Shown: positions 2,084 to 21,727 of the stretch, piece by piece | Numbering within the stretch: position 1 is the first letter of the stretch | Layout: each line of letters opens with the position of its first letter | DNA from: a virus | Reading direction: 5' to 3' (one strand) | DNA: 25,168 nt | IMG/VR virus record: IMGVR_UViG_3300032323_001763 | Span: 1-25,168 of that record | The notes under the pieces: generated by a model | Databases searched by the model: none | What the model was told of the DNA's origin: nothing | Seen by the model: only the letters and a program-made list of their open reading frames with translations | Program-made: the position numbers and the translations under genes

Positions 2084-2347
2084 ATGGCAATTAAAGACAA
2101 TCACTCACCTGCTGCATATCTCGTGTTTAACTTAACGTTTCCTTTCATGAAGCATGATTTATCGGATGATGAGTTAAATCCTATTACATCGAATATCCTC
2201 GATATGTATCGGTGTGCAGAAATCACAATAGATGTGTTAAAACAAGAGTTTGTGAACCAAGGTGTAAAGCATCCGGAATACTACGATGAAGCGCATCAAC
2301 ACATTATTGAACAAATTTTAGAACTTAAACAATCAAAAAACCAATAA
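2084..2347 (+). CDS. Hypothetical protein
   Basis: 87 aa, soluble, with no recognised motif. Asp- and His-containing helices dominate (HDLSDDELNPITSN, HPEYYDEAHQHIIEQILELK). The start is preceded by a long A-rich tract, as expected of a Bacteroidota initiation region. It lies 2 nt upstream of the secreted-protein gene and probably shares its transcript. Confidence 0.6.
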   Translation: MAIKDNHSPAAYLVFNLTFPFMKHDLSDDELNPITSNILDMYRCAEITIDVLKQEFVNQGVKHPEYYDEAHQHIIEQILELKQSKNQ

Positions 2348-2349
2348 AA

Positions 2350-2805
2350 ATGAAAAAGTTAATTTTATCAGCATCATTATTCTTTACTTTAAGTGCGCAG
2401 GCGCAATGGGTTGTAAAGAAGTTAGATAACGGGTTTGATGCACCGTTTAAAATTGCATACACAGAGGATGGTCAACGTCCTTTCTTAAAAATGGAACGTT
2501 ACGAAGGTGCCGGTGTGTTGATTTTCAAAGGCGTTTACTTTTGTGGCTCGCCTGTGTTTATAGAATTATCCTTTCAAGTCAATGGTGTCAACAAGCAGTA
2601 TGGTCGCATTTGTGAATTGAATGAAGATGAAACTACATGCTTTATTACGTTTGATATTAAGAATGAAGATTTCTTCAATGACTTCAAAAACTGCACATCG
2701 GTAAAGGTTCGTGTTACGGATGCATCATGCGAAGAAACCGGAGAAATTTATACATTTAAGATGAATGGTTCAACAGCAGCTGTTAACTTTATACTTACAC
2801 CATGA
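2350..2805 (+). CDS. Secreted protein with signal peptide
   Basis: 151 aa. The N-terminus MKKLILSASLFFTLSAQAQ is a classic Sec signal peptide with a likely AQA cleavage site at about residues 18-19. The mature part is short-stranded and beta-rich, with five Cys (in FCGS, RICEL, TTCF, NCTS, SCEE) that could form disulfides in the periplasm. I do not recognise the family. An exported product in an early-type operon could act at the host envelope, for example in superinfection exclusion, but nothing visible proves this. Its TGA overlaps the next ATG. Confidence 0.7.
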   Translation: MKKLILSASLFFTLSAQAQWVVKKLDNGFDAPFKIAYTEDGQRPFLKMERYEGAGVLIFKGVYFCGSPVFIELSFQVNGVNKQYGRICELNEDETTCFITFDIKNEDFFNDFKNCTSVKVRVTDASCEETGEIYTFKMNGSTAAVNFILTP

Positions 2806-3011
2806 GTCGCGCATATCACTTAATCAAGATGTCGGAGGAGGAGTATGCGAAGTACTTACTTGAAAAAATGACTATTGATATGATGATGGATTTTGAGCAA
2901 ACGAAGCAATGTGCTTTGAATTGTCTTGATGAAATGCTATCACTAGCGCCTGATGCACAGACGATGAAGTTTCTGTTGAGAACAAAAAATATTATTGAAC
3001 CACAAAACTAA
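2802..3011 (+). CDS. Small helical protein, distant relative of the KQCAL family
   Basis: 69 aa with the central QTKQCALNCLDEMLSLAP, which matches AKQCALVAVDEILEVL of the gene at 1779-1997. An N-terminal helix (MSEEEYAKYLLEKM) replaces KAQELLIKF. It therefore looks like a third, diverged member of that phage family. It lacks the YWDKVK and KQQEQ tail. It overlaps the upstream secreted-protein gene by ATGA. Confidence 0.65.
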   Translation: MSRAYHLIKMSEEEYAKYLLEKMTIDMMMDFEQTKQCALNCLDEMLSLAPDAQTMKFLLRTKNIIEPQN

Positions 3012-3017
3012 ACCGCC

Positions 3018-3146
3018 ATGCTACCAAAAGCCTATTACTACAAAACTCGCCAGAATTATGAAGCATCATCGAAAAGTGCGTTCTACGCCTTGTTGTTACT
3101 CATCATAATGTCTTTCATACTGTTTCTCTCTCAAATGTTTCAGTAA
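3018..3146 (+). CDS. Small single-TM protein (42 aa)
   Basis: ATG at 3018-3020 and TAA at 3144-3146. A basic, Tyr-rich N-terminus (PKAYYYKTRQNYE) is followed by a C-terminal hydrophobic segment (AFYALLLLIIMSFILFL), so the product is a predicted inner-membrane protein with N-in topology. It is the last gene before the convergent terminator. Its spacing of 6 nt from the upstream stop supports real translation. It could be an accessory holin or antiholin-like peptide, but no family is recognised. Confidence 0.55.
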   Translation: MLPKAYYYKTRQNYEASSKSAFYALLLLIIMSFILFLSQMFQ

Positions 3147-3150
3147 ATAA

Positions 3151-3186
3151 AAAAAGGGTGGTTGTTTTGATACAATCACCCTTTTT
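3151..3186. terminator. Bidirectional intrinsic terminator between convergent operons
   Basis: AAAAAGGGTGGTTGT (3151-3165) pairs with ACAATCACCCTTTTT (3172-3186) around a 6-nt loop: 15 positions with one G·T wobble. An A-run precedes and a T-run follows, so it works as a rho-independent terminator on both strands. It separates the last plus-strand gene from the SOD gene on the minus strand. Confidence 0.85.
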
Positions 3187-3205
3187 AATTATCCGTTTGT
3201 GCGCT

Positions 3206-3817
3206 TCAATGCATCTGCAATACTTTATTGCAATAATCCCAGTTTATAACCTTGAATATATTCCTAACATAACTCTCTCTTTCCGCATTGTATTTCAAAT
3301 AATACGCATGCTCCCAAACATCAATTCCCAATATGATATCAACATCCATATACATTTTGGGATTGTCCTGGTATGGTGTTTCGGTTATCATAACCCGGCC
3401 TGTGCGTTTGGAAATAACTAACCACACCCAACCCGAACCAAATCTTTTCTTTGCAGTTTCAAGCATCAACTTTTGAAAGTTTGCATATCCATTGAAATTT
3501 GAGTCGATAACATTTTTTATCAACCCATAAGGTTCATTCTTTAAATTTGTGGGTGGTTTTAACATTGCCCAAAACAAACTATGGTTGTAATACCCGCCTC
3601 CGTTGTTGCGTATAGTAGTGGAGTAATTATCGATTGATTTTATCAACTGCTGGATGGGCATTTTTTTGACCTTCTCCTTTACTACGGCTTCATTCAAGTT
3701 TTTTAAATAAGTTAAGTAATGCTTATTGTAATGAATAAACATCGTCTCCTCATCAATGAAAGGTTCAAGTGAGGCGTAGGCATAGGGTAGTTTCTTTGGT
3801 AAATACATAGCATTCAT
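3206..3817 (-). CDS. Iron/manganese superoxide dismutase
   Basis: Converts superoxide to oxygen and hydrogen peroxide. It has no signal peptide, so it should act in the cytoplasm. From the ATG at 3817 it is 203 aa, the normal SodA/SodB length. Hallmarks in order: LPYAYASLEP (10-19), MFIHYNKHY (26-34), NNGGGYYNHSLFW (71-83), GSGWVWLV (127-134), YQDNP (149-153), GIDVWEHAYYLKY (164-176). All four metal ligands are present: His29, His79, Asp166, His170. NNGGG together with Gln150 matches Mn-type or cambialistic enzymes, not the classic Fe-type. An upstream ATG at 3853 would start inside a hairpin and adds residues with no family match, so I prefer 3817. Hairpins bracket the gene on both sides. 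Confidence 0.93.
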   Translation of the reverse strand: MNAMYLPKKLPYAYASLEPFIDEETMFIHYNKHYLTYLKNLNEAVVKEKVKKMPIQQLIKSIDNYSTTIRNNGGGYYNHSLFWAMLKPPTNLKNEPYGLIKNVIDSNFNGYANFQKLMLETAKKRFGSGWVWLVISKRTGRVMITETPYQDNPKMYMDVDIILGIDVWEHAYYLKYNAERESYVRNIFKVINWDYCNKVLQMH

Positions 3818-3821
3818 TTTT

Positions 3822-3868
3822 AAAAAAGGGTGGTCGTATTTTACAACAATCACCCTTTGTTTTTTTTG
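3822..3868 (-). terminator. Hairpin just upstream of the SOD gene, twin of 3151-3186
   Basis: AAAGGGTGGT (3825-3834) pairs with ATCACCCTTT (3849-3858). On the minus strand the hairpin is followed by a run of six T, as expected of an intrinsic terminator for the gene at 3886-4215. The stem sequence is nearly the same as that of the terminator on the other side of the SOD gene. Because the SOD start lies only 4-5 nt beyond it, it could also act as an attenuator or hide the SOD start. Confidence 0.65.
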
Positions 3869-3885
3869 ATTATTTCAGTAGTAGT

Positions 3886-4215
3886 TTATTTTTCGAGTGA
3901 TGCCTCACCAATCCACAATTTGCAAATTGCATCATAATCCACATTTCCGCGGATCTGAGAACAAACGCCTATTTTTTTGACAGGGTTGGTGTAGTAAAAA
4001 ATGCAATTTCCACAAATGAAGTCTTTGTTGGTTGATGGGTCTTTGTAGTTTGAATCGCGTTGAGACATTTTGAAAGGTGGTGTACCCTTGCCTTTACCTA
4101 ATAAAAAATACAGGAATGGTGTCTTTTGTTGTTCCCTAGATGGCAATTTTTGAAATTCAACCCATGCCATTTTCACCCATTTCGGTGAATTCTTTAAAGC
4201 TTCTGCGTAATCCAT
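3886..4215 (-). CDS. Small protein with HiPIP-like four-cysteine cluster
   Basis: 109 aa, no TM. The C-terminal half has Cys68-x2-Cys71-x13-Cys85-x12-Cys98 in the context CGNCIFYY, GVCSQIRG, AICKLW. This resembles the C-x2-C-x14-C-x13-C layout and aromatic surroundings of high-potential iron-sulfur proteins, although a zinc site is equally possible. The N-terminal half (MDYAEALKNSPKWVKMAWVEF) is helical. Its start overlaps the end of the upstream spanin-like gene by 22 nt, so it is translated from the lysis-module transcript, and a terminator hairpin follows it. Redox function next to SOD is suggestive only; similar cysteine motifs also occur in phage proteins of unknown role. Confidence 0.6.
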   Translation of the reverse strand: MDYAEALKNSPKWVKMAWVEFQKLPSREQQKTPFLYFLLGKGKGTPPFKMSQRDSNYKDPSTNKDFICGNCIFYYTNPVKKIGVCSQIRGNVDYDAICKLWIGEASLEK

Positions 4216-4643
4216 ATCGTAAATATATTAACCGTAACTCCTGAAATAATCGCTGTCCATTTGTAGCGCTTTTGTTTCTTTAATTCATCTTTTATCAACA
4301 CTTTTTCATCATCGCACATCGCAATCTGTCTTGATTTCTCTTTGATGATAACCTGTTGTGCTTTTTCAATTAATAAGTAATTATCAATCACGTTTTGTTG
4401 ATATTCAATAACCGAATCCTTTTGACTCAATTCTTTATTCTGAATATCATTCAACTTAATCAACTTTTTTCTTTCTTCATTCTGCAACGCCAGTTTGCGT
4501 CCTTGTTCAATTTTGAACACAATCACCGTATCTGCGCCTTTCAACTCAATTGATGGGTATTCTGTTGCATTACTCTGTGAAAATGCGAGAGATGCGAGAA
4601 AAACCGCATAAAACGCGATTACATACCTATTTAAGTTCTTCAT
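4194..4643 (-). CDS. Exported coiled-coil protein with C-terminal TM (spanin-like)
   Basis: 149 aa from the ATG at 4643, chosen because it places the signal peptide (MKNLNRYVIAFYAVFLASLAFSQ) at the N-terminus. The mature part has the D-T-V-I-V motif (GADTVIVFKIEQGRK), then a long charged coiled coil, and ends in a hydrophobic TM (WTAIISGVTVNIFTIWI). Periplasmic coiled coil plus C-terminal TM resembles unimolecular spanins, which fuse the outer and inner membranes at lysis, but no lipobox Cys is visible. Its start overlaps the 3' end of the TM/coiled-coil gene at 4627-4974 in another frame, as in Rz/Rz1 pairs. It is paralogous at its N-terminus to 5868-6425. Confidence 0.55.
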   Translation of the reverse strand: MKNLNRYVIAFYAVFLASLAFSQSNATEYPSIELKGADTVIVFKIEQGRKLALQNEERKKLIKLNDIQNKELSQKDSVIEYQQNVIDNYLLIEKAQQVIIKEKSRQIAMCDDEKVLIKDELKKQKRYKWTAIISGVTVNIFTIWITQKL

Positions 4644-4974
4644 CGAAGTAGTTTTTAAGTTGCGTTGCATCAAACGTATTGATTTTTTTTACATTATCAA
4701 CATAAACCTTCTCAACCTTTCTCTTTTCATTCTGCAATTCCGCAATCACATTCAATGACTCATCAATCAAGAATTGGTCGCGTTCAATCTGTTGCTTCAA
4801 AAAATCGATTTCATTCAGTTTTTTGTTAACTATCAACTCCGACTCTTTTCTTTGCTTGCGTAACATCTTTGTGTTCATAGAACGCAGTTCATTCTTCTCG
4901 TTATAAAGTTTTAGGATTATAACGATGAGGGTGATTAAGAAAAAGTTCTTTAAAAGGTTTGTGTAGTTATGCAT
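4627..4974 (-). CDS. Inner-membrane coiled-coil protein (i-spanin-like)
   Basis: 115 aa. There is one N-terminal TM (residues about 9-23, KNFFLITLIVIILKL), then a periplasmic coiled coil rich in K, E, Q and N running to about residue 100. This is the size and topology of Rz-type inner-membrane spanins. It follows the GH19 endolysin by about 5 nt and overlaps the exported partner downstream. Assignment rests on topology and position, since spanins are too divergent for motif recognition. A generic TM-linked structural protein is the alternative. Confidence 0.5.
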   Translation of the reverse strand: MHNYTNLLKNFFLITLIVIILKLYNEKNELRSMNTKMLRKQRKESELIVNKKLNEIDFLKQQIERDQFLIDESLNVIAELQNEKRKVEKVYVDNVKKINTFDATQLKNYFDEELK

Positions 4975-4979
4975 GTGGG

Positions 4980-5600
4980 TTATTTTACATACTCAAAATA
5001 CTTGTACGTCTTTTGTTTCCTATCCTCCAAACCATGCGTACCGCCATTGATGCGTTTTGTCAAAGCAAGGATTGCCGCATCGGTGATACCTTGGTCGCAT
5101 ATTGACCACAACTTGTTACGTTCAAAGAAGAACATTGCGGATTCAAAAGAATACTTTGTTGCAACAAGGTCTGGGTTTGTCAACACCTCATCCGTACCTA
5201 AATACTTTGCAAACGCAGTGTAATTGTCTTTGCCTGTTAATTGCAATGCACCACGACCACGGAATTTCCATCCATCACCCGTTGCCTCCGCACCATTGCC
5301 CATCCTTGCACCATATACGCGGTTTGCAATCTTCTCTGGGTTACGAGCATAGGATGTTGCTAAATCGCCCGGGAAGTATTTACCAAATATCTTTTTCAAC
5401 CCATCGGTTGAGTAATTCAAATTTTCGGAAAACAACTTAAAACCACCCGTCTCATGTGATGTTTGCGCAAAGAAATGCGCAGCACGTACAGGCGAGAGTT
5501 TGTAAAACTCCATTGCCTTTTTCATTGTTCCCGGTCCAAATGCACCATCAACTTGTGCGCCTGTAAAACCAACCTTCTCTTGTAAACTCTTTAAACTCAT
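4980..5600 (-). CDS. GH19-family endolysin (chitinase/lysozyme-like)
   Basis: Predicted to cleave the glycan backbone of peptidoglycan at lysis. 206 aa, no signal peptide or TM, so it needs a holin for release. The first 35 residues (LQEKVGFTGAQVDGAFGPGT) resemble a short peptidoglycan-binding or linker motif. The catalytic domain follows: AAHFFAQTSHETGGF with the catalytic acid Glu50, SENLNYS (58-64), NRVYGARMGNG, and the substrate-cleft motif FRGRGALQLTGKDNY typical of GH19. It starts exactly at the stop of the holin-like gene (TAATG), giving a holin-endolysin-spanin order. Confidence 0.88.
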   Translation of the reverse strand: MSLKSLQEKVGFTGAQVDGAFGPGTMKKAMEFYKLSPVRAAHFFAQTSHETGGFKLFSENLNYSTDGLKKIFGKYFPGDLATSYARNPEKIANRVYGARMGNGAEATGDGWKFRGRGALQLTGKDNYTAFAKYLGTDEVLTNPDLVATKYSFESAMFFFERNKLWSICDQGITDAAILALTKRINGGTHGLEDRKQKTYKYFEYVK

Positions 5601-5866
5601 TATTCTTCTATTTTATCGTTATTACTTTTTGACTTTCCTTTCAAACTCATTATTCTACCAGCCGTTGTGATACCAAATGCGCCTAATGTCAGCAACATAA
5701 AACCATCAAAGATAAACTCCTTGATAACCAACTCCTTGCTCATAATGCCTGTTACCACATCTACAATCAATATGAATACCATTGCAAAAAATGCAACAAC
5801 ACCCACAAACGCTTGTTCATTGATGTTGTTATCATCTGATATTAACTCTCTAAATAATTTTCTCAT
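5600..5866 (-). CDS. Holin-like two-TM protein
   Basis: 88 aa. TM1 spans about residues 19-41 (AFVGVVAFFAMVFILIVDVV) and TM2 about 51-73 (FIFDGFMLLTLGAFGITTAG). A short acidic N-terminus precedes them, and a hydrophilic charged tail (KGKSKSNNDKIEE) ends the protein. Length, two TMs, charged C-terminus and direct coupling to the endolysin (shared base at 5600) fit a class II holin, which forms the membrane lesions that release endolysin. Sequence alone does not prove holin activity. Confidence 0.65.
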   Translation of the reverse strand: MRKLFRELISDDNNINEQAFVGVVAFFAMVFILIVDVVTGIMSKELVIKEFIFDGFMLLTLGAFGITTAGRIMSLKGKSKSNNDKIEE

Positions 5867-5867
5867 T

Positions 5868-6425
5868 TTACTTTAATTTTAAAAAATTTAACCTCGGCCG
5901 CGATGGTAATGCAATATCAAACTGCCATCCCAAACTTGGCTCTTTTTGATTATCATCCTTTGGACATTCTTCATTTATTTTGAAAAACATAATATCCCCA
6001 GTATAATCATCCTTTCGTACTACATATGTTGATAAATCAACCGCTACAACTTCTTTATTTGCATATGAGTAATAAATCCAAGCACCCTCCATTGACCTTC
6101 GCAATAACCATTCGGTAATCGAATCCAGTGTTTCATCGCGCACAAGTTCCTTTTCAACTATTGTTCTATATTCAACAAACCTTTCTGTGTAAAACAGCAA
6201 TAAAGTATCGCGCATTGCAATGATTGAATCCTTCACTTTTGTCTGTTGCTTGAAATTTGCAATTTTCAATTTCTGTGAATCGAATATTGCGTTTATTGTA
6301 TCAGCTTGCGCCTTGGTAAGAATTACAACCGAATCGCCATCAATTACCGTCTGAAATGGGTAGCGTGATTGGCTGAAACTCAAACTGCTTACCACTAGAC
6401 TGCCTACGAACAACATCTTTTTCAT
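5868..6425 (-). CDS. Exported protein, second spanin-like partner
   Basis: 185 aa from the ATG at 6425, which puts a signal peptide first (MKKMLFVGSLVVSSLSFSQS). The next part (GDSVVILTKAQADTINAIFDSQKLKI) matches DTVIVFKIEQGRK...KL of the gene at 4194-4643, a motif I have seen in many Bacteroidota phage proteins. A coiled coil follows to about residue 100. A C-terminal globular stretch rich in Tyr, Asp and Lys replaces the TM of its paralogue. It overlaps the upstream TM/coiled-coil gene by 86 nt in a different frame, an Rz/Rz1-like embedded arrangement. Role inferred: envelope disruption, or a periplasmic partner of that protein. Confidence 0.5.
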   Translation of the reverse strand: MKKMLFVGSLVVSSLSFSQSRYPFQTVIDGDSVVILTKAQADTINAIFDSQKLKIANFKQQTKVKDSIIAMRDTLLLFYTERFVEYRTIVEKELVRDETLDSITEWLLRRSMEGAWIYYSYANKEVVAVDLSTYVVRKDDYTGDIMFFKINEECPKDDNQKEPSLGWQFDIALPSRPRLNFLKLK

Positions 6426-6729
6426 TTTGCAACTCTTTTTTAATATCCTTAACCACACTGCGTGTTGAATCTAAATCGCCAATAACTTCCGAAACCATTG
6501 ATTGTAAATTCTCTTTATCCTCCGCCAACTCCGCGTTCTCCTCTTTGAGATCCGAAACAGTTGTAGACAATTTTTTATTCTCCGATGTCAACTGCTTATT
6601 CTCCGTAGTTAACCTATTGTTATCATCAACAACAACAACATGCGAATGACCGGATGAAAACACTTGTAAACAAACCAGTACAACAAATCCTGCAATTGAA
6701 CCCAAAATGATTCTTTTTGTTTTTTTCAT
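6340..6729 (-). CDS. TM plus coiled-coil protein, second i-spanin-like
   Basis: 129 aa. The N-terminal TM (RIILGSIAGFVVLVCLQVF) is followed by a strongly heptad-like coiled coil (NNRLTTENKQLTSENKKL to about residue 105) and a short non-coiled end. This is the inner-membrane spanin topology. Its 3' end overlaps the next, exported gene by 86 nt. With 4627-4974 it gives two such overlapping pairs on either side of the holin and endolysin genes. Confidence 0.5.
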   Translation of the reverse strand: MKKTKRIILGSIAGFVVLVCLQVFSSGHSHVVVVDDNNRLTTENKQLTSENKKLSTTVSDLKEENAELAEDKENLQSMVSEVIGDLDSTRSVVKDIKKELQNEKDVVRRQSSGKQFEFQPITLPISDGN

Positions 6730-6730
6730 C

Positions 6731-6976
6731 TTATCGTTTTTTTGACAAGAATATCATAATCATTTCTTTTAATGACTTTGCGTTTTCGGTTGATTGCTCA
6801 ATAGTTTTTTCAAAACCATCCCTATACTCCGTTTCCAATTCTTCAACGCGAGCCTTCAATTCATCTTCCGACTTCATCAATCTATTCAAAAATGTCCAAC
6901 ACAAATAACCAAGTGCAAGGACTGCAAAGCCCAAGACACCATATTGTGTTAATACCTCAAATGGACCAAAAGACAT
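6731..6976 (-). CDS. Small one-TM protein, holin/BhlA-like topology
   Basis: 81 aa. The TM is at about residues 10-30 (YGVLGFAVLALGYLCWTFL), followed by a basic loop and an amphipathic charged helix. It is paralogous to the next gene upstream (6976-7164): both have YG-(L/I)G-A-LALGY--W-F--R. BhlA/UviB-type holin-like proteins have the same layout of short N-terminus, one TM and charged helical tail, but I cannot confirm membership. Starts by ATG/TAA overlap with its paralogue. Confidence 0.55.
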   Translation of the reverse strand: MSFGPFEVLTQYGVLGFAVLALGYLCWTFLNRLMKSEDELKARVEELETEYRDGFEKTIEQSTENAKSLKEMIMIFLSKKR

Positions 6977-7164
6977 TATTTCTTGCGTTTTTTCGATTCT
7001 TTTAACTGCTCCGCCAACCTATCCTTCTCCGCGAGATGGCGTTTGATGAAAATCCATGCAACATAGCCCAATGCCAATGCCGCTAAACCAATCGGGCCAT
7101 AATCACCCAATTGATTGAAAATGCCAAAATCTGGCGCTGTTTGTTCAACCGCTGTTGTGTCCAT
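6976..7164 (-). CDS. Small one-TM protein, paralogue of 6731-6976
   Basis: 62 aa. A short acidic N-terminus is followed by a TM (GPIGLAALALGYVAWIFI, about residues 24-41) and a basic tail (KRHLAEKDRLAEQLKESKKRKK). The TM core matches its neighbour closely, so the two arose by tandem duplication and then diverged in tail length. Function is unknown; holin-like or a virion membrane protein are both reasonable. Confidence 0.55.
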   Translation of the reverse strand: MDTTAVEQTAPDFGIFNQLGDYGPIGLAALALGYVAWIFIKRHLAEKDRLAEQLKESKKRKK

Positions 7165-7170
7165 TTTATT

Positions 7171-7854
7171 CTATTTTTTCTTGTATGCATTATATCCAAC
7201 GTACAATGCTCCGATTATCAATCCAATACCTATCACATAAGTCAATCTGCGCTTCATAGCTCGATTGTACGCGCGTTCATCAATCAAAGTGTATGTGAAC
7301 TTATTGCCATACAAATCGCGATGTTTACGCGCAAGTTTCATGAACGTTTCAAAGTCATCAGATTTTTGAAAAACCTGGCAACCTGCCGACCATGTATTTA
7401 CATCCTTCGAATCCTTGCCCGCCTTGTGAATATTTATACCAAACAACCCCGTTTCCTCACGACCATTATTGAAGTCAAGAATTGCATTGCGGTCATAATC
7501 ACGAATTACAGTCACTGGTTTTCTTTGAACCAATGCATCATATTGATTTTTGTGCTTACCAATAATATAGGTATCAACCCACTGACCTTCTTTTAATATC
7601 GCGGTTCCAAGTGTAGAGAGGGGATTTTTCAAGTAGTATGTTCCCGGGTCGGTTGTTGCTGTGAAATATTTACCTTCCCAATCCCCTTTATCTGTTTTCC
7701 AAAACGCATAAATCAAGTCATCAAACTTGTTCGGCACGGTTGAATCCTTACGAACACCAACGATGTTCAATTGATACGGCTTATCATAAATGATATAACC
7801 TTTATTGCGTAACGATGCAATAAGTGCGCGAATTGATTTTGCCTCTATCTGCAT
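7171..7854 (-). CDS. L,D-transpeptidase-like protein with C-terminal TM
   Basis: 227 aa. The region GINIHKAG (139-146) followed by WSAGCQVF (155-162) gives His143 and Cys159 16 residues apart. This resembles the H-x14-17-S-x-G-C catalytic motif of YkuD L,D-transpeptidases, though the usual residues after the Cys differ. Upstream, TTDPGTYYLKNP and AILKEGQW are features I associate with this family in Bacteroidota phages. The last 25 residues form a TM (LTYVIGIGLIIGALYVGY) ending in NAYKKK. A tail-anchored peptidoglycan-acting enzyme would sit on a membrane, either the host inner membrane or a virion membrane. Hydrolase or transpeptidase activity cannot be told apart here. Confidence 0.65.
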   Translation of the reverse strand: MQIEAKSIRALIASLRNKGYIIYDKPYQLNIVGVRKDSTVPNKFDDLIYAFWKTDKGDWEGKYFTATTDPGTYYLKNPLSTLGTAILKEGQWVDTYIIGKHKNQYDALVQRKPVTVIRDYDRNAILDFNNGREETGLFGINIHKAGKDSKDVNTWSAGCQVFQKSDDFETFMKLARKHRDLYGNKFTYTLIDERAYNRAMKRRLTYVIGIGLIIGALYVGYNAYKKK

Positions 7855-7855
7855 C

Positions 7856-8191
7856 TTACCTGCGTGTTTGGATTAATATTTGGTCTAACTTCTCATCCAT
7901 GCGACTCATGTCAGATTCTAATTTCTGAATCTTATCCTCCAACGTCTTAACTTCAACTTTGTTAACGCCTTTAAAAACATCAACCTCCTGTATATCATCC
8001 TTTATTGTTGATACATCCGACTTTACCTCTTTGATATCTTGCGTATGTTCATTCAATGTCGCTTGCGTTTTGTAGTAAAACCCATACCCAACAGACAATG
8101 CACATGCAACAGCAACAAATCCCGATATGAAATTAGTCATAACCGTTGCTTTCTTCAAGTGTTTTTCAAGAGTTACGTGTTCTGCGTTCAT
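7856..8191 (-). CDS. TM and coiled-coil protein
   Basis: 111 aa. After about 17 hydrophilic residues, a TM spans about 18-40 (TNFISGFVAVACALSVGYGF). A long coiled coil then runs to the end (DIKEVKSDVSTIKDDIQEVD, VKTLEDKIQKLESDMSRMDE). It is coupled directly to the L,D-transpeptidase-like gene (1-nt gap). Such proteins often sit in phage lysis or late modules, either as a spanin-like component or as a stalk for an assembly. No family recognised. Confidence 0.55.
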   Translation of the reverse strand: MNAEHVTLEKHLKKATVMTNFISGFVAVACALSVGYGFYYKTQATLNEHTQDIKEVKSDVSTIKDDIQEVDVFKGVNKVEVKTLEDKIQKLESDMSRMDEKLDQILIQTRR

Positions 8192-9565: not shown

Positions 9566-10396
9566 TTATTTTCTGTATTTAAACTTTTCAAAATACCATG
9601 TGTAGTTGTTATACAACCACTCACAAATATCTTGTCCTAAAATTTGTTTATAATCCGGTTGCTCCATCGATAATGTTGTGCGGATGCGATGCAAGTCAGA
9701 TGTTAAACCATAAACTTCATCATCCTCCTTTGTAATCTGTGCAATATTATCAAAATCATGCTCAAATTGTTCAACACCCAAATACTCATAAATGCGTTTC
9801 ATTTCGAGTTCGGGATTGAGGCACAAATCCTCGTATTTAACAAACAATACGTGTGTGTCTTGACCAAGACGTATCATTTCTAAAATGCGTTCAACAGCGC
9901 GCCCAATTGTCGATGTAGTATCCATCCATTCGTCCACTCGTTTGTGAACTATAGTTCCGCGACCCGTGGAATCATCACGAATCGGGTCATGTTTCAATGG
10001 GTTCTTACGATATATCTTTTCGTATGATGCAACAACTGCGCGTAAATCACGAACAAGGCAGATGATTTTTGGTTCTTCGTGTATCTCGGCTAAAAACGGC
10101 CTATACACTCCCCAACCTCTACTCTTGTCCATTACATACTTCTTGTCTGTAATTGCATTGTAAAACCCATACATACCTTCCTTGCAAAACGCCTTAAAAC
10201 CCTCCTCCATCAATTGCGCATCTTGCGCTTGGAATTCTGGTGATGATGTATAATTCGCTCTTGCGCCAAATATCAACTCCAAAACGCCCGATGTGGGTGT
10301 TACGTAAAAATCCGGGTTTTGCCCAAGGATGTTTTGAAACAATGTCGAGCCACTTCTTGGCATCGATGATTGAAAAAATATCTTACTTACTCCCAT
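9566..10396 (-). CDS. PAPS-dependent sulfotransferase
   Basis: Transfers sulfate from PAPS to a hydroxyl or amine acceptor, probably a glycan or lipid. 276 aa, cytosolic. The 5'-phosphosulfate-binding loop is SMPRSGSTLF (11-20). The 3'-phosphate-binding motif is VRDLRAVVASYEKIYR (115-130), with Arg116 and Ser124 in the expected places. The C-terminal half (HVLFVKYEDLCLNPELEMKRI, IYEYLGVE) is typical of the Sulfotransfer family. The start overlaps the GT9-like gene by 14 nt, so the two are translationally coupled and probably act on the same molecule. The acceptor is unknown. Confidence 0.85.
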   Translation of the reverse strand: MGVSKIFFQSSMPRSGSTLFQNILGQNPDFYVTPTSGVLELIFGARANYTSSPEFQAQDAQLMEEGFKAFCKEGMYGFYNAITDKKYVMDKSRGWGVYRPFLAEIHEEPKIICLVRDLRAVVASYEKIYRKNPLKHDPIRDDSTGRGTIVHKRVDEWMDTTSTIGRAVERILEMIRLGQDTHVLFVKYEDLCLNPELEMKRIYEYLGVEQFEHDFDNIAQITKEDDEVYGLTSDLHRIRTTLSMEQPDYKQILGQDICEWLYNNYTWYFEKFKYRK

Positions 10397-11276
10397 CGAA
10401 CATCTCTTTTACTGCATCAATAACCTCATCATCATTGAAAATCTCAGTTTCATCATTGAATGGGAATTCAAGTAAATCACCAACAATGTTGTATTTAGAG
10501 AATACGGAGTTTTTCAATTCAGGTGTTGTTGTTTCCCGATTTGCAATGATATTCTTATTGTTTAAGTATCCGAATTGTTTTGGAGTGTTTGCAACCCACA
10601 ACACAACAGAATCAAGCTGCAATGCCTTTGCAACATGTTGCGCGAATGAATCCATTAACAACCTGCCTTTTGACAACTTGATTAATACCACTAATGCGCG
10701 GAATTCTCCCGATACAGGCGTTGTATTTTGCAATCCAAGTTGGTCTTCACGCTTGATGTGAATAACGTTGTATTTGTCAACTAACGCATCAACAACTTTC
10801 TGTGCTGTTGTGATTGGAATATCGCGAGACCATGAGTATTTAATACCTTGTTCCTGCGCACCACCATTTGTTTGAATAACGAACAAAGGTTTCTCTGATG
10901 CATATTGTTGTGAGTAGAAATCAATCTCGCGTTGAGTAAGATATAATTTCGGTTGTTCGTTGTTATATTTAACATTGAACATTTCACACCAGGTTTCAAT
11001 GAGGTGTTTTTTGCGATTAATGAATGATGTTTCTTGATATGGATTATGCAAGAAAGTGATAACCTCTTGGTTTTCAATATAATCTTGATAAAAATATGGT
11101 AAATTGCCATGCGTAAGACATTTGTCTACGTGTGGATTACAAAGAAACACTTGTGGGTAAGCAGTGATAACGATGAGTTTATCATCGGGATACTGCGTTT
11201 TAATCGCTTCACAGACAGCGGTTGCCATGATTGACTTACCGATACCTCCGTCTATTGAAAAAATGATGTTTTTCAT
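10383..11276 (-). CDS. GT9-like glycosyltransferase (heptosyltransferase fold)
   Basis: 297 aa, two Rossmann-like halves. The N-terminus MKNIIFSIDGGIGKSIMATAV matches the GT9 opening (G--GD-i--t---a-k). The next sections (KLIVITAYPQVFLCNPHVDK; ETWCEMFNV; FVIQTNGGAQ; KGRLLMDSFAQHVAKAL) follow GT9/GT-B architecture, including a nucleotide-sugar pocket with the D-S-F-A-H-A region near residue 215. It would add a sugar to LPS, a capsule or a virus-specific glycan. It is coupled to the sulfotransferase by a 14-nt overlap. The GGIGKS string is not a Walker A motif here. Confidence 0.75.
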   Translation of the reverse strand: MKNIIFSIDGGIGKSIMATAVCEAIKTQYPDDKLIVITAYPQVFLCNPHVDKCLTHGNLPYFYQDYIENQEVITFLHNPYQETSFINRKKHLIETWCEMFNVKYNNEQPKLYLTQREIDFYSQQYASEKPLFVIQTNGGAQEQGIKYSWSRDIPITTAQKVVDALVDKYNVIHIKREDQLGLQNTTPVSGEFRALVVLIKLSKGRLLMDSFAQHVAKALQLDSVVLWVANTPKQFGYLNNKNIIANRETTTPELKNSVFSKYNIVGDLLEFPFNDETEIFNDDEVIDAVKEMFDGSK

Positions 11277-11302
11277 TCCTATTTATTTATTATGGTTAAA
11301 AA

Positions 11303-11635
11303 TTATTGCAAAGCATAAATTTCATCAACTAATGCATCAATAGCCGCTGTGTCTAAATCTGCATATTGTACGCGCCATCCTTCAACGTTTGGTTCAGATG
11401 TTTGCCAATCGGAAAACAATTGATTGAATGTATTGATAGCATGATAGTTCTTTGTTGCTGGGTTACCTTCTGGTTTGAAAGAATAGACATTGTCAATTAC
11501 AGCCTGTGCTTTTGTTAGATCTGCTGTATTGACTTTGATGTTATAGGTGTCGCCAATCAATTGCGTTTCACCATAACCAAAAATATGCAATGTGTTCCAT
11601 TGCGGTGTTACTGTTCCTGTTACTGTTTTTGCCAT
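11303..11635 (-). CDS. Hypothetical protein
   Basis: 110 aa, soluble. A beta-rich N-terminal part (MAKTVTGTVTPQWNTLHIFG) is followed by an alpha-rich C-terminal part ending AAIDALVDEIYALQ. No family recognised. A good promoter -7 element (TATATTTG on the minus strand) lies 18 nt before the start, so this gene is probably the first of the GT9/sulfotransferase transcript. It may be a virion-associated or carrier protein, but that is only positional. Confidence 0.55.
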   Translation of the reverse strand: MAKTVTGTVTPQWNTLHIFGYGETQLIGDTYNIKVNTADLTKAQAVIDNVYSFKPEGNPATKNYHAINTFNQLFSDWQTSEPNVEGWRVQYADLDTAAIDALVDEIYALQ

Positions 11636-11652
11636 GATAATGATTTTATTTA

Positions 11653-11660
11653 CAAATATA
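11653..11660 (-). promoter_or_regulatory. Bacteroidota promoter -7 element
   Basis: Minus-strand TATATTTG fits the TAnnTTTG consensus of Bacteroidota housekeeping promoters. It lies between the end of the fibre gene and the start at 11635 and predicts a short 5' leader. A TTG (11676-11678) lies 15 nt upstream, shorter than the usual 19-21 nt spacing to the -33 element, so the upstream element is uncertain. Confidence 0.5.
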
Positions 11661-11670
11661 ATTTAATTAA

Positions 11671-13560
11671 TTAAACAATTTTTAAAGTCCCTGCATCGTT
11701 CCAAACTGAACCTGCGGGTAAACCTGCGGAGGATGTTGGTATTGATTTAATAGAAAGGTTGTTTACAAATAGTGTGTTTGTTCTATCTGATGTAATGCCC
11801 ATACCCGCAATAAACGAACAATTACAAGAAGCTGCATTTCCACAACCACCTAAAACAGATGACCAATATCCGGATGCTGTATTGCTTTGTCCACCCGTTA
11901 CAAGTGAACATGCACCATTTGCAGTATTTGAACGCCCTCCTAAAACTGCTGAATTGTTTCCTGATGCTGTATTTAAACATCCCGAACCTACAAATGCGAA
12001 ATATGCAGATGCTGTATTGCTTTGTCCACCTACAATAACGCCTCCTGAACCTGCAGTGTTAGATGTTCCTGAAACTATTCCAGAATTTTTTTGACCAGAA
12101 ATTGTATTTACAAAACCAGCTCCGATAAAACCATAGTTGCCAGATACAGTATTTGCATAACCCCCACTGATAGTTGACCTTAGACCTGAAACATTGTGTT
12201 TTTGACCACCACTTACTGTTGATGTATATCCAGATGCTGTATTACATTGCCCTCCTGTGATTGAAGAAAAACTTCCTGTTGCCCTATTTTGAAAACCACC
12301 ACCTACAAAGGAGTATGCACCTGCATTGCAAATTGTAGGTGCAACTGTAAACGCACATGTTGCTAAATCCCAAGTACCACCTGTTGTGTTGTTTCCAACA
12401 CCACCTACTACTACCGCACCAAATGCAAGGCATCCACTTGTTGAATTACATACTGCGTTGCATTCGCCTCCTCCTACAAATGAATGAAAGGCACTAGCAA
12501 GGTTCCTTTCGCCTCCTGCAATTGTTGAACGTAATCCAGATGATGTATTTGATATACCGCCTCCTAAAAATGAATATGCGCCGCTAGCAGTGTTTGAACT
12601 TCCACTTCCAATAAAACTTCTAATACCTGAAGCAATATTCAAAACTCCTCCAGAAATTGTCGCAAATTGACCACTTGTGCTATTACACTGTCCCCCAGCA
12701 ATCGTACTATATCCACCGCTTGCAGTATTTGTTATACCTCCGCCTATACTTGTTCTATTTGCTGATGCGATGTTTGATTGACCCCCAGAAATAGTTGATG
12801 CAGTTAATGAAGCGGTATTCGAAAGCCCTCCACTTACAGTTGAGAAATCACCACATGCTACGTTTGTTGACCCGCCTGCAATTGTGGAATATTGCGCATT
12901 TGCAACATGACAAAAACCACCTCCGATAAAAGCTGCATAACCTGATGAAGTATTATTTTGTCCTCCGACTACAGTTGAAAAATTGTTAGTGCTTAAATTG
13001 AATCTGCCAGAAATAGATGATGCTGTGTTTCCTGATGCTGTATTTGATTGACCGCCTGCAACAACGTTTCTACATAACGATGCCGAATTACCAGATCCAC
13101 CGCCCACAAATGAACATCCTCCATTTGCTGAATTTGCACAACCGCCCGAAACCGTACTATAAGCAGAAGAAACGGTATTTGACCAACCTCCTGCAATTAC
13201 TGCGCTATTTCCACTTGCTGCATTTTGCCTGCCCCCACTTATAACGGCAAATGGCCCGCTAGAATTGTTACTAAAACCACCGCCTACAAATGCATCTGAT
13301 GCCGATGCTGAATTGTTTCTACCAAATGCTACTCCTGCATATGTTGATGATGCTGTGTTGCAACGACCACCTGCAACACCTGAACATGCACCAGAGGCTG
13401 TATTCAAAGTACCTCCTAATGCCGCGGAATACGCGCCAGAAGCGCTATTACTCACACCGCAACGAACTGTTGAGCATGTGCCTGCACCCAATATCTCAAC
13501 CGCACATAACGCAGGACATGATGCAGGTTGCCCAGTTGCTTGAAAACCAAATTCACTCAT
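11671..13560 (-). CDS. YadA-head-like, cysteine-rich repetitive virion fibre
   Basis: 629 aa. After MSEFGFQATG and a Cys-rich leader (residues 11-38), 22 uninterrupted 15-residue units run from 39 to 368. Their pattern is N-(T/S)-A-S-G-x-x-S-x-(V/I)-x-G-G-x-x, that of trimeric autotransporter (YadA/Hia) head beta-rolls. An insert (about 369-415, GNNTTGGTW, AFTVAPTICN) separates these from about 11 further, less regular units. The C-terminus (NNLSIKSIPTSSAGLP, then SVWNDAGTLKIV) resembles phage fibre ends. There is no signal peptide and no outer-membrane barrel anchor, so this is a virion fibre and not an autotransporter. It has 23 Cys by my count, unusual for this fold. Starts by ATGA overlap with its paralogue. 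Confidence 0.75.
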   Translation of the reverse strand: MSEFGFQATGQPASCPALCAVEILGAGTCSTVRCGVSNSASGAYSAALGGTLNTASGACSGVAGGRCNTASSTYAGVAFGRNNSASASDAFVGGGFSNNSSGPFAVISGGRQNAASGNSAVIAGGWSNTVSSAYSTVSGGCANSANGGCSFVGGGSGNSASLCRNVVAGGQSNTASGNTASSISGRFNLSTNNFSTVVGGQNNTSSGYAAFIGGGFCHVANAQYSTIAGGSTNVACGDFSTVSGGLSNTASLTASTISGGQSNIASANRTSIGGGITNTASGGYSTIAGGQCNSTSGQFATISGGVLNIASGIRSFIGSGSSNTASGAYSFLGGGISNTSSGLRSTIAGGERNLASAFHSFVGGGECNAVCNSTSGCLAFGAVVVGGVGNNTTGGTWDLATCAFTVAPTICNAGAYSFVGGGFQNRATGSFSSITGGQCNTASGYTSTVSGGQKHNVSGLRSTISGGYANTVSGNYGFIGAGFVNTISGQKNSGIVSGTSNTAGSGGVIVGGQSNTASAYFAFVGSGCLNTASGNNSAVLGGRSNTANGACSLVTGGQSNTASGYWSSVLGGCGNAASCNCSFIAGMGITSDRTNTLFVNNLSIKSIPTSSAGLPAGSVWNDAGTLKIV

Positions 13561-15518
13561 GGTACTATTGTTAAAACACCTCCATTACTCCAAACTGCCT
13601 TAGATGGTAAACCAGCAGAAGATGTTGGTATATTCATTATTGATAAATTATTTACAAATGTTGTACAATTCCTATTTGATGTAATATCAGATCCAACGAT
13701 ATATGATTTGTAACAAGATGCGGTATTATTGCAACCACCTAAAACTGCAGTAGCACGTCCAGATACTATATTATTTCGACCTCCACTAATTGTTGAATAA
13801 CAACCACTTGCCGTGTTACCAAACCCACCCCCGATGGTTACTCCAGCACCACCCGTTGCTTGATTACTTGAACCGCCACTTATGGTATTACCATTAGACG
13901 AAACTATTAAATTAGAATTACCCCCACCGATTGTTCCACAACATCCAGCATTTGTATTAGCGCATCCCCCCGTAATAGTAGCAAAATCTAAATTAGCTTG
14001 ATTATTAGCACCTCCACCTATAAATGTTCCACTATTAACTGATGAATTACTGGAGCCACCACCAATTGTACTTGGATAAGTGTCTTCATAATAATTAGAA
14101 GCCGTATTAAAACCTGCGGTGTTTTGAATACCTCCTCCTATCGTATGATTTGCTCGATTTTGGGAACATAAATTATTTAAGTTTTGGTTAATAGTATTTC
14201 CTGCTCCACCTCCTATAAATGATGCCCAACAATTTGTAGTTCCACATTGAGTATTATCTGCCCCTTGAATAACATTCGATATACCACCTGTAATAGTAGA
14301 AGCACAACCACCATAGTTACTTAATGTATTTAAAAAACCACCTCCAATAGTTCCCCATAGATTGCAAGCGGTGTTACACTCACCTCCTGCAACTACTGCT
14401 CTTTGTGCTATTGCCCTATTAATTGAACCACCACCGACTGTTGACAAATACTGACTTGCTGTATTAAATCTACCCCCGATTATACTTGTAAACTGACTCG
14501 TTGCTCGGTTTTGAAAGCCTCCCCCAATAAATGAGTATTGACCTGCATTACATATTGTTGGAGCAACTGTAAACGCGCATGAAGCCAATGTCCATGTCCC
14601 TCCCGTTGTATTGTTACCAATACCTCCGACTACCACTGCACCGATTGCAAGACATGAAGATGTAGAGTTGCAAGCGTTATTGCAAATACCGCCTAATACT
14701 GCTCCTGCATATCCTTGAACATTATTTCTAAATCCGCCTGCAATTGTTCCGCATGCACCATTAACTATATTCGAATTACCACCTCCAATGAATGAACGCG
14801 TACTTGTAATTGCATTTGAGTAACCGCCTGAAATTGTTGAAAAATCACCTGTTATGCAGTTATTATTACCTCCACCAATTGCTGTCCAGTTGTTGCATGC
14901 CTTATTTGAACCACCTCCCGCGATTGTTGCACCTGTATTTGCAGCGCAGTTTGCTGAACCACCGCCAATAAAAGTTGAATTTCCTGATGCCGTATTTGTA
15001 CACCCTCCTACAATAGTTGCATAAACTCCCGAAACAGTGTTTGTATTACCCGTTCCTATAAATGAATGGCATCCTGAAGCTGTGTTAAATGTACCCGTTA
15101 CAACTGATGCTCTAGCACCACTAACACTATTTCCGAAACCAGACCCAATAAATGTATATCCATTAGATACAGTTACCGCCCTACCGCTAGCGATACCAGC
15201 TTTTGATGCACTAGCAGTTAAACTTGCTCCATTTCCTGTTCCTAAAAATGCATGTCCTCCGCAATTTGTATTTAAATCACCGCCTCCAATAAATGAACAA
15301 GCACCTAATGCATTATTTGAACATCCTCCTACAACTATAGAGTATAATCCAGATGCAGTATTTGTTCTGCCGCCTAATGCTGCTGAATATGAGCCTGAAG
15401 CATTATTACTTACACCACAACGAACTGTAGAGCATGTGCCTGCGCCCAATATCTCAACTGCACATAATGCAGGACATGATGCCGGTTGACCCGTTGCTTG
15501 AAAACCAAATTCACTCAT
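13557..15518 (-). CDS. Second YadA-head-like, cysteine-rich fibre
   Basis: 653 aa tandem paralogue of the next gene. The first 38 residues are nearly identical (MSEFGFQATG, CPALCAVEIL, TCSTVRCGV). The body has the same GG-x-x-N-T-A-S-G repeats but with irregular unit lengths and longer inserts (for example around ADNTQCGTTNCW and FNTASNYYEDTYPS). The AFTVAPTICN/GNNTTGGTW insert is also shared. About 31 Cys by my count. C-terminus NNLSIMNIPTSSAGLP. No signal peptide or barrel. Probably a trimeric fibre with its own receptor specificity, or a partner of the paralogue. Confidence 0.72.
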   Translation of the reverse strand: MSEFGFQATGQPASCPALCAVEILGAGTCSTVRCGVSNNASGSYSAALGGRTNTASGLYSIVVGGCSNNALGACSFIGGGDLNTNCGGHAFLGTGNGASLTASASKAGIASGRAVTVSNGYTFIGSGFGNSVSGARASVVTGTFNTASGCHSFIGTGNTNTVSGVYATIVGGCTNTASGNSTFIGGGSANCAANTGATIAGGGSNKACNNWTAIGGGNNNCITGDFSTISGGYSNAITSTRSFIGGGNSNIVNGACGTIAGGFRNNVQGYAGAVLGGICNNACNSTSSCLAIGAVVVGGIGNNTTGGTWTLASCAFTVAPTICNAGQYSFIGGGFQNRATSQFTSIIGGRFNTASQYLSTVGGGSINRAIAQRAVVAGGECNTACNLWGTIGGGFLNTLSNYGGCASTITGGISNVIQGADNTQCGTTNCWASFIGGGAGNTINQNLNNLCSQNRANHTIGGGIQNTAGFNTASNYYEDTYPSTIGGGSSNSSVNSGTFIGGGANNQANLDFATITGGCANTNAGCCGTIGGGNSNLIVSSNGNTISGGSSNQATGGAGVTIGGGFGNTASGCYSTISGGRNNIVSGRATAVLGGCNNTASCYKSYIVGSDITSNRNCTTFVNNLSIMNIPTSSAGLPSKAVWSNGGVLTIVP

Positions 15519-15536
15519 TTGATTAATTTTTTAAAT

Positions 15537-15806
15537 TTATTTCGCAATCACTTCGAACACACCCGCAGTTGCAGTTATCGTAATTCCATCTAATGTAAAA
15601 CCAGAATCTGCGCGTAACAATATCGGTTGTGCTACATTCAATGCAGCCGCTGTATTCGTAACCCCAGGAACCGATGTAGTTCCAAGGATAGTTGCAGCGC
15701 CGGATATTAAATTAATAGATACGATAGAAAAACCCATCGTTTCTGTAATTGTGAATGTTGTATTTGTGAATGTTGAAGTGAAAACACTTTGATTTCTAAA
15801 TCCCAT
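15537..15806 (-). CDS. Free-standing fibre N-terminal (virion-anchor) domain
   Basis: 89 aa, beta-rich. It begins MGFRNQSVFTSTFTNTTFTI and matches, across its whole length, the first ~90 residues of the two large fibres (MSFKNQSVFSSVYTNTTFTI): the SGAATILG, PGVTN, QPILLRADSGFTL and AGVFEV segments all have counterparts. It has no receptor-binding part. It could be a short decoration protein occupying the same virion site, an assembly partner, or the remnant of a third fibre. Confidence 0.6.
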   Translation of the reverse strand: MGFRNQSVFTSTFTNTTFTITETMGFSIVSINLISGAATILGTTSVPGVTNTAAALNVAQPILLRADSGFTLDGITITATAGVFEVIAK

Positions 15807-15823
15807 GATTATATTTTTTCTTA

Positions 15824-18178: not shown

Positions 18179-18202
18179 GATAATTATTTTTGCAGTGTAG
18201 GA

Positions 18203-18454
18203 TTATTGAGGCATTGGAGGTGTTGGTTTCGGAACGTATTCAATTAACGGAAGTTCTTTAACCCACAATGTTTCTTCATTCGTTGTATCTTGCATCTCCT
18301 CAACGCTAATCACCCAGTTGTCATCTGCATCCTGAATTGGATTATAAATCGAATCTGGCGCGTAATAAACGCCTACAAGCGAGTCTTTTTGCTCTTCAGT
18401 TAATAAACCTACATAAACTGTAGTGTCCTCTTGTGTGATGTCTGTTAGTTTCAT
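18203..18454 (-). CDS. Small acidic protein of the fibre cluster
   Basis: 83 aa, acidic, with a Pro-rich end (YVPKPTPPMPQ). The segments LTEEQKDSLVG, YNPIQDADDNWVISVEEM and WVKELPLIEY match a pattern I have seen for small proteins encoded beside fibre genes in Bacteroidota phages. It may be a fibre-associated or assembly protein. The start codon is coupled to the end of the HNH gene (TAATG), and the large fibre gene follows 24 nt downstream. Confidence 0.55.
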   Translation of the reverse strand: MKLTDITQEDTTVYVGLLTEEQKDSLVGVYYAPDSIYNPIQDADDNWVISVEEMQDTTNEETLWVKELPLIEYVPKPTPPMPQ

Positions 18455-19188
18455 TATACTTGTTCTTTAAATTTTTTCAATATTTCTCTAAATAACTCAT
18501 CTTTGTAAGCTCCTCTTGCTTTGTTTACCCATACGCACACAAATTGTACATTACCTTCAACATAGCCTAATTCATTATCAATTCTATCTAAAGATATTAA
18601 ATATGGGCTTGATGTCATTTCACGCTTCTCAATGTAAGTTTTTGGACATAATATTTGAGTATTTGTGTACGAGCATTTAAAATCTTGTTTCTCCAATAAT
18701 CTTTGCAAATATTCAATGCTTACCGTAAATGGATAATTTCTTGAATTTGCATTTGATTTCCAACTTCCAAATAGTGAATTATAAATATTTTTAGTTCCTC
18801 CCTTATTACAGTTTCTTGGTTGACGCTTGCCAGATGCCCATACTTTTGACATCATTCCACTCTTACCTTCAACTCTTTTAATATTGTTTCTCTCAATTAT
18901 TAATTTAACTTTTTCAGATCCTATTTTATACTTCTTTGATAATTCATTTTGAGTAGCTCCGTTTTTATACTGTTCACATAATGCATCTTCATAATCAAAT
19001 TTAAGTTCTTTTATACTTGCATATAATGCAGATTTACCCATCATCTCAACACCGTTCATCTTTAATACTCTACGAACTCTGTCGGTAGTTGCATTTAAAT
19101 AAGTTGCAATTTGTTGTACTGTCTTCTTACCATAGTTGCTTACTATATAATCAGCATCTAATGGTTTAAAATTATTCCATGTTCCCAT
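18454..19188 (-). CDS. HNH homing endonuclease
   Basis: Predicted free-standing selfish endonuclease that cuts a related virus genome at the cognate site and spreads by repair. 244 aa from the ATG at 19188. Two helix-turn-helix-like segments (KKTVQQIATYLNATTDRVRR, 21-40; NELSKKYKIGSEKVKLIIER, 81-100) should read DNA. The C-terminal HNH-type nuclease has FKCSYT (170-175), SLDRIDNELGY (199-209), EGNVQFVC (211-218) and Asn222, the layout of phage SxDRID-type HNH enzymes. The longer start at 19227 would overlap the fibre stop; 19188 follows a -7 promoter element directly. Its base composition is more AT-rich than its neighbours. Confidence 0.8.
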   Translation of the reverse strand: MGTWNNFKPLDADYIVSNYGKKTVQQIATYLNATTDRVRRVLKMNGVEMMGKSALYASIKELKFDYEDALCEQYKNGATQNELSKKYKIGSEKVKLIIERNNIKRVEGKSGMMSKVWASGKRQPRNCNKGGTKNIYNSLFGSWKSNANSRNYPFTVSIEYLQRLLEKQDFKCSYTNTQILCPKTYIEKREMTSSPYLISLDRIDNELGYVEGNVQFVCVWVNKARGAYKDELFREILKKFKEQV

Positions 19189-19192
19189 AAGA

Positions 19193-19200
19193 CAAATATA
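19193..19200 (-). promoter_or_regulatory. -7 element directly upstream of the HNH gene
   Basis: Minus-strand TATATTTG, identical to the element at 11653-11660, ends 4 nt before the ATG at 19188. Transcription would begin at or next to the start codon and so give a leaderless mRNA. No TTG is visible at the correct -33 spacing, which lowers confidence. Confidence 0.35.
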
Positions 19201-19219
19201 CAATAATGTAGTCATTTCA

Positions 19220-21604: not shown

Positions 21605-21615
21605 ATTTTATGCTT

Positions 21616-21633
21616 TTTGTTATATATAACAAA
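21616..21633. promoter_or_regulatory. Perfect 18-bp palindrome before the first fibre gene
   Basis: TTTGTTATATATAACAAA is a perfect inverted repeat 12 nt upstream of the ATG at 21604. Such an AT-rich dyad next to a start could be an operator for a dimeric regulator or an RNA hairpin near the translation start. No regulator is assigned. Confidence 0.5.
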
Positions 21634-21635
21634 TG

Positions 21636-21665
21636 CTCGTGTGCAATTACATGAATCGCAACGAG
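21636..21665. other. Hairpin in the predicted 5' leader of the fibre operon
   Basis: CTCGT(g)TGC at 21636-21644 pairs with GCAACGAG at 21658-21665: eight pairs with one bulged base around a 13-nt loop. It lies between the predicted -7 element and the palindrome, so it would be in the leader RNA and might stabilise it. Confidence 0.35.
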
Positions 21666-21671
21666 ACATTA

Positions 21672-21679
21672 CAAATGTA
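21672..21679 (-). promoter_or_regulatory. -7 element for the fibre transcript
   Basis: Minus-strand TACATTTG fits TAnnTTTG. It sits directly after a terminator-like stem and about 67 nt before the first fibre gene, a sensible promoter position. I see no clear TTG at the -33 spacing. Confidence 0.45.
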
Positions 21680-21683
21680 ACAA

Positions 21684-21707: not shown

Positions 21708-21727
21708 AATGTTATTTTCAAAACGAC

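Follow-up and report, generated by a model that had tools for sequence, protein, structure and literature searches.

Known superoxide dismutases of viruses

Virus-encoded superoxide dismutases (SODs) are commonly regarded as auxiliary genes of host origin with a scattered occurrence. Homologues of the Fe/Mn type occur in isolated bacterial viruses, namely PA5oct and its relatives and Vibrio phage 2.275.O. A 501-aa protein (A0A6J5L953) is annotated as "superoxide dismutase [uncultured Caudovirales phage]". Putative Microcystis bloom viruses are also reported to carry an Fe/Mn SOD among their auxiliary metabolic genes, with protection from reactive oxygen as its proposed role (PMC12542629), and a virus-encoded SOD is attributed to Megavirus chilensis in the reference list of PMC9405923. 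Literature searches on phage Fe/Mn SODs returned passing mentions only; matches on Lac Pavin concerned CPR bacteria and those on earthworms the host's own enzyme, and both were set aside.

Within the Fe/Mn family, SodFM1 is set apart by a C-terminal Gln, and the residue two positions before the Asp ligand (D-2) is a determinant of metal preference (Sendra et al., 2023; PMC10172142). A C-terminal Gln together with Gly at D-2 is mostly associated with Mn preference, with the warning that homology alone does not reveal the metal, Mn preference being usual in SodFM1 but not universal (PMC10172142). The words virus and phage are absent from the main text of that study.

A complete Fe/Mn SOD gene in a viral contig

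The window analyzed here is the whole 25,168-nt stretch of the IMG/VR virus record IMGVR_UViG_3300032323_001763. An earlier note, made from its letters alone, had claimed a complete Mn/Fe SOD with all four metal ligands and the family motifs intact, and had called the enzyme probably active. Positions 3206–3817 (minus strand) form an open frame of 203 aa, with an alternative in-frame start at 3817. We regard 3206–3808 (minus strand) as the likelier CDS because the homolog in the viral contig L002 has its sole in-frame ATG at the position that aligns with Met4 of the window frame (base 3808). Besides this start comparison, the annotation as an Fe/Mn SOD of the SodFM1 type draws on Pfam domains, ligands and fold. 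The protein matches both Sod_Fe_N (PF00081; 6.2e-23, 81.5 bits against a curated cut-off of 27) and Sod_Fe_C (PF02777; 6.8e-31, 106.8 bits against a cut-off of 20.9).

In an alignment of 40 SODs the metal ligands H29, H79, D166, and H170 (three His and one Asp) are invariant, and so are the second-sphere residues H33, Y37, N78, W130, W132, Q150, W168, E169, and Y173. H33 and Y37 are the gateway residues of the window SOD and Q150 is its C-terminal Gln. The AlphaFold model of the monomer (pLDDT 94, pTM 0.90) has the MnSOD fold; solved MnSODs overlay it at a TM of about 0.9, the closest PDB structure being the B. subtilis SOD (TM about 0.9), and by sequence the MnSOD of Sphingobacterium sp. T2 (PDB 6gsc) is one of its closest relatives with a solved structure. 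With both domains, all ligands and second-sphere residues and the fold in place, the claim of a complete enzyme with intact ligands and motifs is borne out, and "probably active" holds as a prediction from these same features. The window gene is a genuine virus-borne Fe/Mn SOD that is probably functional, its activity being predicted.

The water-coordinating Gln of the window protein is the C-terminal one (Q150, within TPYQDNP); the N-terminal Gln is absent, the protein reading NNGGGYYNH in place of NNAAQVWNH. The D-2 position is occupied by Gly. The window SOD is accordingly labeled as SodFM1 by Gln position, and a preference for Mn is predicted.

Genes surrounding the SOD

The earlier note had placed the SOD in a viral gene cluster, among genes for lysis and the virion, and annotation of the neighboring genes, all on the minus strand, agrees with this. 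Beside the SOD lies a gene for a small Cys-containing protein (3886–4215), which has only a sub-threshold Pfam HIPIP match and has relatives in L002, L003, and L354. A cluster of lysis and membrane-protein genes, including small membrane proteins, covers 4194–8191 according to Pfam and PHROG matches and comparison with relatives. Within it are a GH19-type lysozyme-like gene (4980–5600), a putative holin-like gene (5600–5866) and a putative L,D-transpeptidase-like gene (7171–7854) that matches phrog_3000 and, more weakly, an endolysin family.

The part from 9566 to 25074 contains sulfotransferase, glycosyltransferase-like, repeat-rich fiber-like and other probable virion genes that are common to L015 and L018. 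The sulfotransferase adjoins the glycosyltransferase-like gene (9566–11276) and the pair is conserved in L015–L018; the products perhaps modify the fibers or the host surface. Two adjacent proteins (11671–13560 and 13557–15518) share the same N-terminus, have YadA-head-like repeats and are probably fiber or receptor-binding proteins. Two further genes (15824–18178 and 19220–21604) encode paralogous proteins of 784 and 794 aa, the first matching the phrog_5939 tail protein; the ORF between them (18454–19227) resembles an HNH homing endonuclease and has an unusually low GC content (0.29).

The SOD belongs to the virus

L002 is an independent 7.7-kb viral contig from IMG/VR that aligns with the window without a break over positions 2093–5883, at about 81% nucleotide identity. 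The alignment spans the SOD and both its flanks, and the gene order is common to both contigs. The GC content of the SOD (0.36) is close to that of the window (0.37). A misassembly with host DNA, which the earlier note had named as something that would count against it, is ruled out by this unbroken synteny. That the gene is host contamination or a misassembly can be given practically no weight: SOD genes are frequent in Bacteroidia genomes, but the synteny with L002 and the SODs of the same lineage or closer in three further viral contigs argue against such an origin. The dN/dS between the window and L002 SODs is 0.026, compared with 0.029 for the adjoining lysozyme-like gene; the ratio is rough, synonymous sites being near saturation. 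The window/L002 SOD is under strong purifying selection.

Near-identical terminator-like hairpins bracket the SOD in both the window and L002. The upstream hairpin (3826–3857, minus strand) is followed by a T run and folds at -14.2 kcal/mol (z -4.0), and the downstream one (3154–3183, minus strand), a near copy of it, folds at -15.7 kcal/mol (z -4.3); both are conserved in L002. A simple terminator scan of the window did not list either of them. Among 435 loci scanned, of which L001 and L353 are copies of the window and L002, the paired pattern was seen for the SODs of the window and L002 only, besides one bacterial locus. About 18 bases separate the end of the upstream hairpin from the start codon, too few for a promoter between it and the SOD. 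Transcription of the SOD must consequently start before or at the upstream hairpin or read through it. One sigma-70-like match was found at 3896–3869, but equally many are expected by chance and Bacteroidota promoters differ. As for the terminator that a moron would bring with it, a predicted one stands on each side of the gene, and the SOD appears as a self-contained, moron-like cassette at the downstream end of the lysis/virion cluster.

Distribution within the virus family

Searching related viral contigs, as the earlier note had proposed, identified SODs in L002, L003, and L004 with 91, 60, and 55% identity to the window SOD, respectively. L003 has several genes in common with the window. 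The tie to L004 is looser: it is made by a packaging-ATPase-like gene and a putative capsid protein of 245 aa that also occur in L015 and L019, themselves relatives of the window. The SOD is absent from L014–L019, the relatives found through the gene at 7171–7854, and 12 of the 13 contigs found via the putative capsid gene or the gene at 3886–4215 carry no SOD either, L004 being the exception; the family contigs may be incomplete, so that absence is not certain. A marker search with the gene at 3886–4215 identified only L002 and one SOD-less contig. The earlier note had further named a combination of close relatives lacking the gene and decay of the copy as evidence against it. The lack is seen in most of the family, but the window copy, with its low dN/dS, is not decayed.

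The position of the SOD also varies. It follows the gene at 3886–4215 in the window and L002, the holin-like gene in L003 and a calcineurin-like gene in L004, and at the slot where the window and L002 have the SOD, L014 and L015 carry other genes. We infer that within this family the SOD may pass from virus to virus as a moron, an optional accessory gene; this would account for its sporadic presence and changing position.

The family itself has a HerA/Zot-like ATPase and a well-conserved 245-aa putative capsid protein (L338, L018, L019, L004, and L340), as well as many small proteins whose ends consist of a membrane segment and lysines. To judge from the genes read, the virus may lack a tail and contain a membrane. 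The predicted structure of the putative capsid protein has a pLDDT of 42, and no isolate was found among phage genomes with the packaging ATPase as query. The neighbor of the L004 SOD matches genes of Cellulophaga phages at about 61% identity; with this hint, the host of the window virus is probably a member of the Bacteroidota, in line with the earlier note.

Related SODs in other phage groups

A two-pattern scan of IMG/VR seeded with four viral SODs confirmed 119 stretches of viral contigs that encode a related SOD. In many of these the SOD is followed by some 150 to 370 extra residues, and on annotated contigs the extended SODs adjoin a head-tail adaptor gene, with genes for a UvsW-like helicase and a DNA polymerase nearby. 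With the adaptor gene as query, 575 relatives were identified. Of the best 80, 77 reached far enough upstream, and 67 of these had the SOD close upstream of the adaptor gene; SOD carriers had served as seeds and the nearest relatives were kept, and the 87% applies to that subset. Among the contigs sampled, the SOD is near-core in this uncultivated contractile-tailed phage group. The remark in the earlier note that an Mn/Fe SOD is unusual in such a viral cluster holds only in part, Fe/Mn SODs being frequent in viral contigs, as the 119 stretches and the 67 of 77 sampled contigs of this one group show. The adaptor gene matched no isolate when used as query in phage genomes.

The loci of the group (L356–L435 and L173–L249, e.g., L175:5911–7428) indicate that it is large and that the adaptor-linked SOD often has a variable C-terminal extension. 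The extensions are of several unrelated kinds (L173, L224, L232, and L235), some with a PD-(D/E)XK-nuclease-like motif (GVDIKV..QVKPF), and no Pfam match was found for the extensions of three proteins tested.

A third phage group (L008, L010–L012, and L234) is characterized by an SOD that starts with a tag (ITESQxxLxL or IKKILREE-like) similar to those of many unrelated proteins encoded on these contigs. Such tags were found in 20 of 90 ORFs in these loci and in 3 of 478 in bacterial loci. The tag suggests virion targeting and is perhaps a propeptide. Several of the phage records H1–H11, either named as phages of Listeria, Enterococcus, Staphylococcus, Salmonella, or Acinetobacter or listed as phage under the name of the host, have host-like SOD genes, look like host sequence and were not used.

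Phylogeny of the viral SODs

Cellular SODs were sampled as the best 80 of at least about 590 genome-contig loci, together with 395 Bacteroidia genomes and further genomes for SOD paralogs, SodFM2 and archaeal copies. An SOD match was found in 377 of the 395 Bacteroidia genomes, the best having about 49% identity to the window SOD. Over all cellular matches listed, the best identity was about 49–50%, against the 91, 60, and 55% of the viral relatives. As far as sampled, a recent pickup from a host is ruled out, no cellular SOD exceeding about 50% identity.

In a tree rooted with SodFM2, 22 of the 23 SODs from viral contigs, which come from several phage groups, form one clade (support 100/99) on the SodFM1 side. 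This clade is separate from every cellular SOD sampled, and the window, L002, L003, and L004 make up a subclade within it (support 100/100). The split from SodFM2 has the same 100/99 support, the subfamily labels being assigned by Gln position. The viral clade stays after removal of the longest row, L009, and an unrooted tree of 139 rows agrees on it; the bootstrap was not fully settled (correlation 0.96 and 0.91). Its members have the motif HYNKHY in common. Two SODs of viral or phage records, L221 (from the same record as L005) and L280, nest among bacteria and were not counted in the clade. The earlier note had left it open whether the gene is nested within host genes or belongs to a separate viral clade, and the trees favor the latter, with some room for a separate capture.

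Origin and role of the viral SOD

AU tests did not reject a grouping of the window lineage with Chitinophagaceae-type SODs (p 0.30) or with flavobacterial SODs (p 0.16). The viral clade is therefore the best tree and not a proven single origin. The clade has a long stem (0.39) and was drawn from a short alignment (197 columns), and these figures together with the AU tests would fit an independent capture of the SOD by the window lineage from a Bacteroidota host, the clade being partly a long-branch effect. We consider such a capture unlikely, though deserving real weight, as the clade has 100/99 support in two trees and is kept without its longest row, its SODs share the HYNKHY motif, and a close bacterial relative was not found among the cellular SODs sampled. 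At the other extreme, the viral SODs might be a virus-only Mn-type clade of single old origin that has been passed between unrelated phages as part of the virion or its assembly, with the gene being core beside the head-tail adaptor in one large uncultivated contractile-tailed group, and the window gene being the same viral enzyme carried as a mobile cassette by another kind of virus. We regard this wider reading as rather doubtful.

The reading we prefer, with some reserve, is that the window holds a probably functional SodFM1 cassette, carried as a moron by an uncultivated virus of probable Bacteroidota, and that it encodes a late cytosolic SOD that protects virus production. Judged from gene position, the infected cell would produce the enzyme at a probably late stage, and from the start of its sequence the enzyme would act in the cytosol, presumably as a dimer. 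It would convert superoxide to hydrogen peroxide and oxygen, and host enzymes can clear the hydrogen peroxide. Host iron-sulfur enzymes and virus production would in this way be spared until lysis while infection disturbs respiration.

The main rival is packaging of the SOD in the virion, where it would protect the particle itself or the opening minutes of an infection. The location of the window SOD within a virion/lysis cluster would fit this, as would the SOD of the same clade that adjoins a head-tail adaptor gene in another phage group and the N-terminal tag that the SOD of the third group has in common with unrelated proteins. In addition, the distant SOD-like gp223 of PA5oct is annotated "ESI-MS/MS" (virion or infected cell), and giant-virus particles contain an SOD (PMC9405923). 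The window SOD, however, has neither tag nor extension, no tag was found in its family, and the hairpins set it off from the virion genes, so that packaging seems improbable here; the contractile-tailed and tagged groups are likelier candidates for it. The optional and mobile nature of the SOD is shared with many counter-defense genes, and it might counter a host defense that makes superoxide or kills by oxidative stress; a general need would better explain why the clade is near-core in another phage group, and we give a role in counter-defense little credence. Still less probable is a protein that has kept the fold and changed its chemistry. Radical generation is ascribed to the Sphingobacterium sp. 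T2 MnSOD in the title of the PDB entry 6gsc, which is among the nearest solved structures by sequence, but that activity is reported for an otherwise ordinary MnSOD in which dismutation is still possible, and all canonical residues are intact in the window SOD. The two roles put forward in the earlier note, protection of the host and counter-defense, are plausible, and protection of virus production by a late cytosolic SOD remains our preferred role.

Comparison with known systems

Individual phage SODs have already been annotated, both in isolated jumbo phages and in UniProt, and the window SOD is best described as an ordinary enzyme whose lineage is unusual in being apparently restricted to viruses. 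The SODs of PA5oct and its relatives and of Vibrio phage 2.275.O, jumbo phages of Gammaproteobacteria, have 25–26% identity to the window SOD and form very long branches outside the group. In its SOD part A0A6J5L953 is closer, sharing the fold at 46% identity, but it has a long extra region whereas the window protein is SOD only; in length it resembles the extended SODs that adjoin a head-tail adaptor gene. The Fe/Mn SOD of the putative Microcystis viruses, likened here by description, belongs to another host group (PMC12542629). Going by the reference list of PMC9405923, the enzyme of Megavirus chilensis is a Cu,Zn-SOD, from an unrelated family with another metal, in a eukaryotic giant virus.

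No description of a virus-only SodFM clade or of a near-core status was found in the open-access literature. The evidence points to an old viral SOD lineage that is common to unrelated phages, near-core in one large uncultivated group and under strong selection where this could be measured. This raises the question of whether Bacteroidota phages need a superoxide defense of their own, in the cell or in the particle, although nearly all sampled Bacteroidia genomes encode an SOD.

The viral branch would join the SodFM family; in the literature checked, viruses have had no part in studies of how its metal preference evolved. Like SodFM1 proteins, the window SOD has the four metal ligands, the C-terminal water-coordinating Gln and Gly at D-2, and in the tree it groups with SodFM1 proteins from Bacteroidota and other taxa and not with SodFM2. 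It differs in standing on a separate, long-stemmed viral branch with about 40–50% identity to the cellular members, and in that its HxxxHH motif ends in Tyr (HYNKHY). With viral copies on a branch of their own as its nearest relatives, closer than any bacterial gene found, the window SOD seems to be a tool that viruses have kept for long, rather than something picked up recently or by accident.
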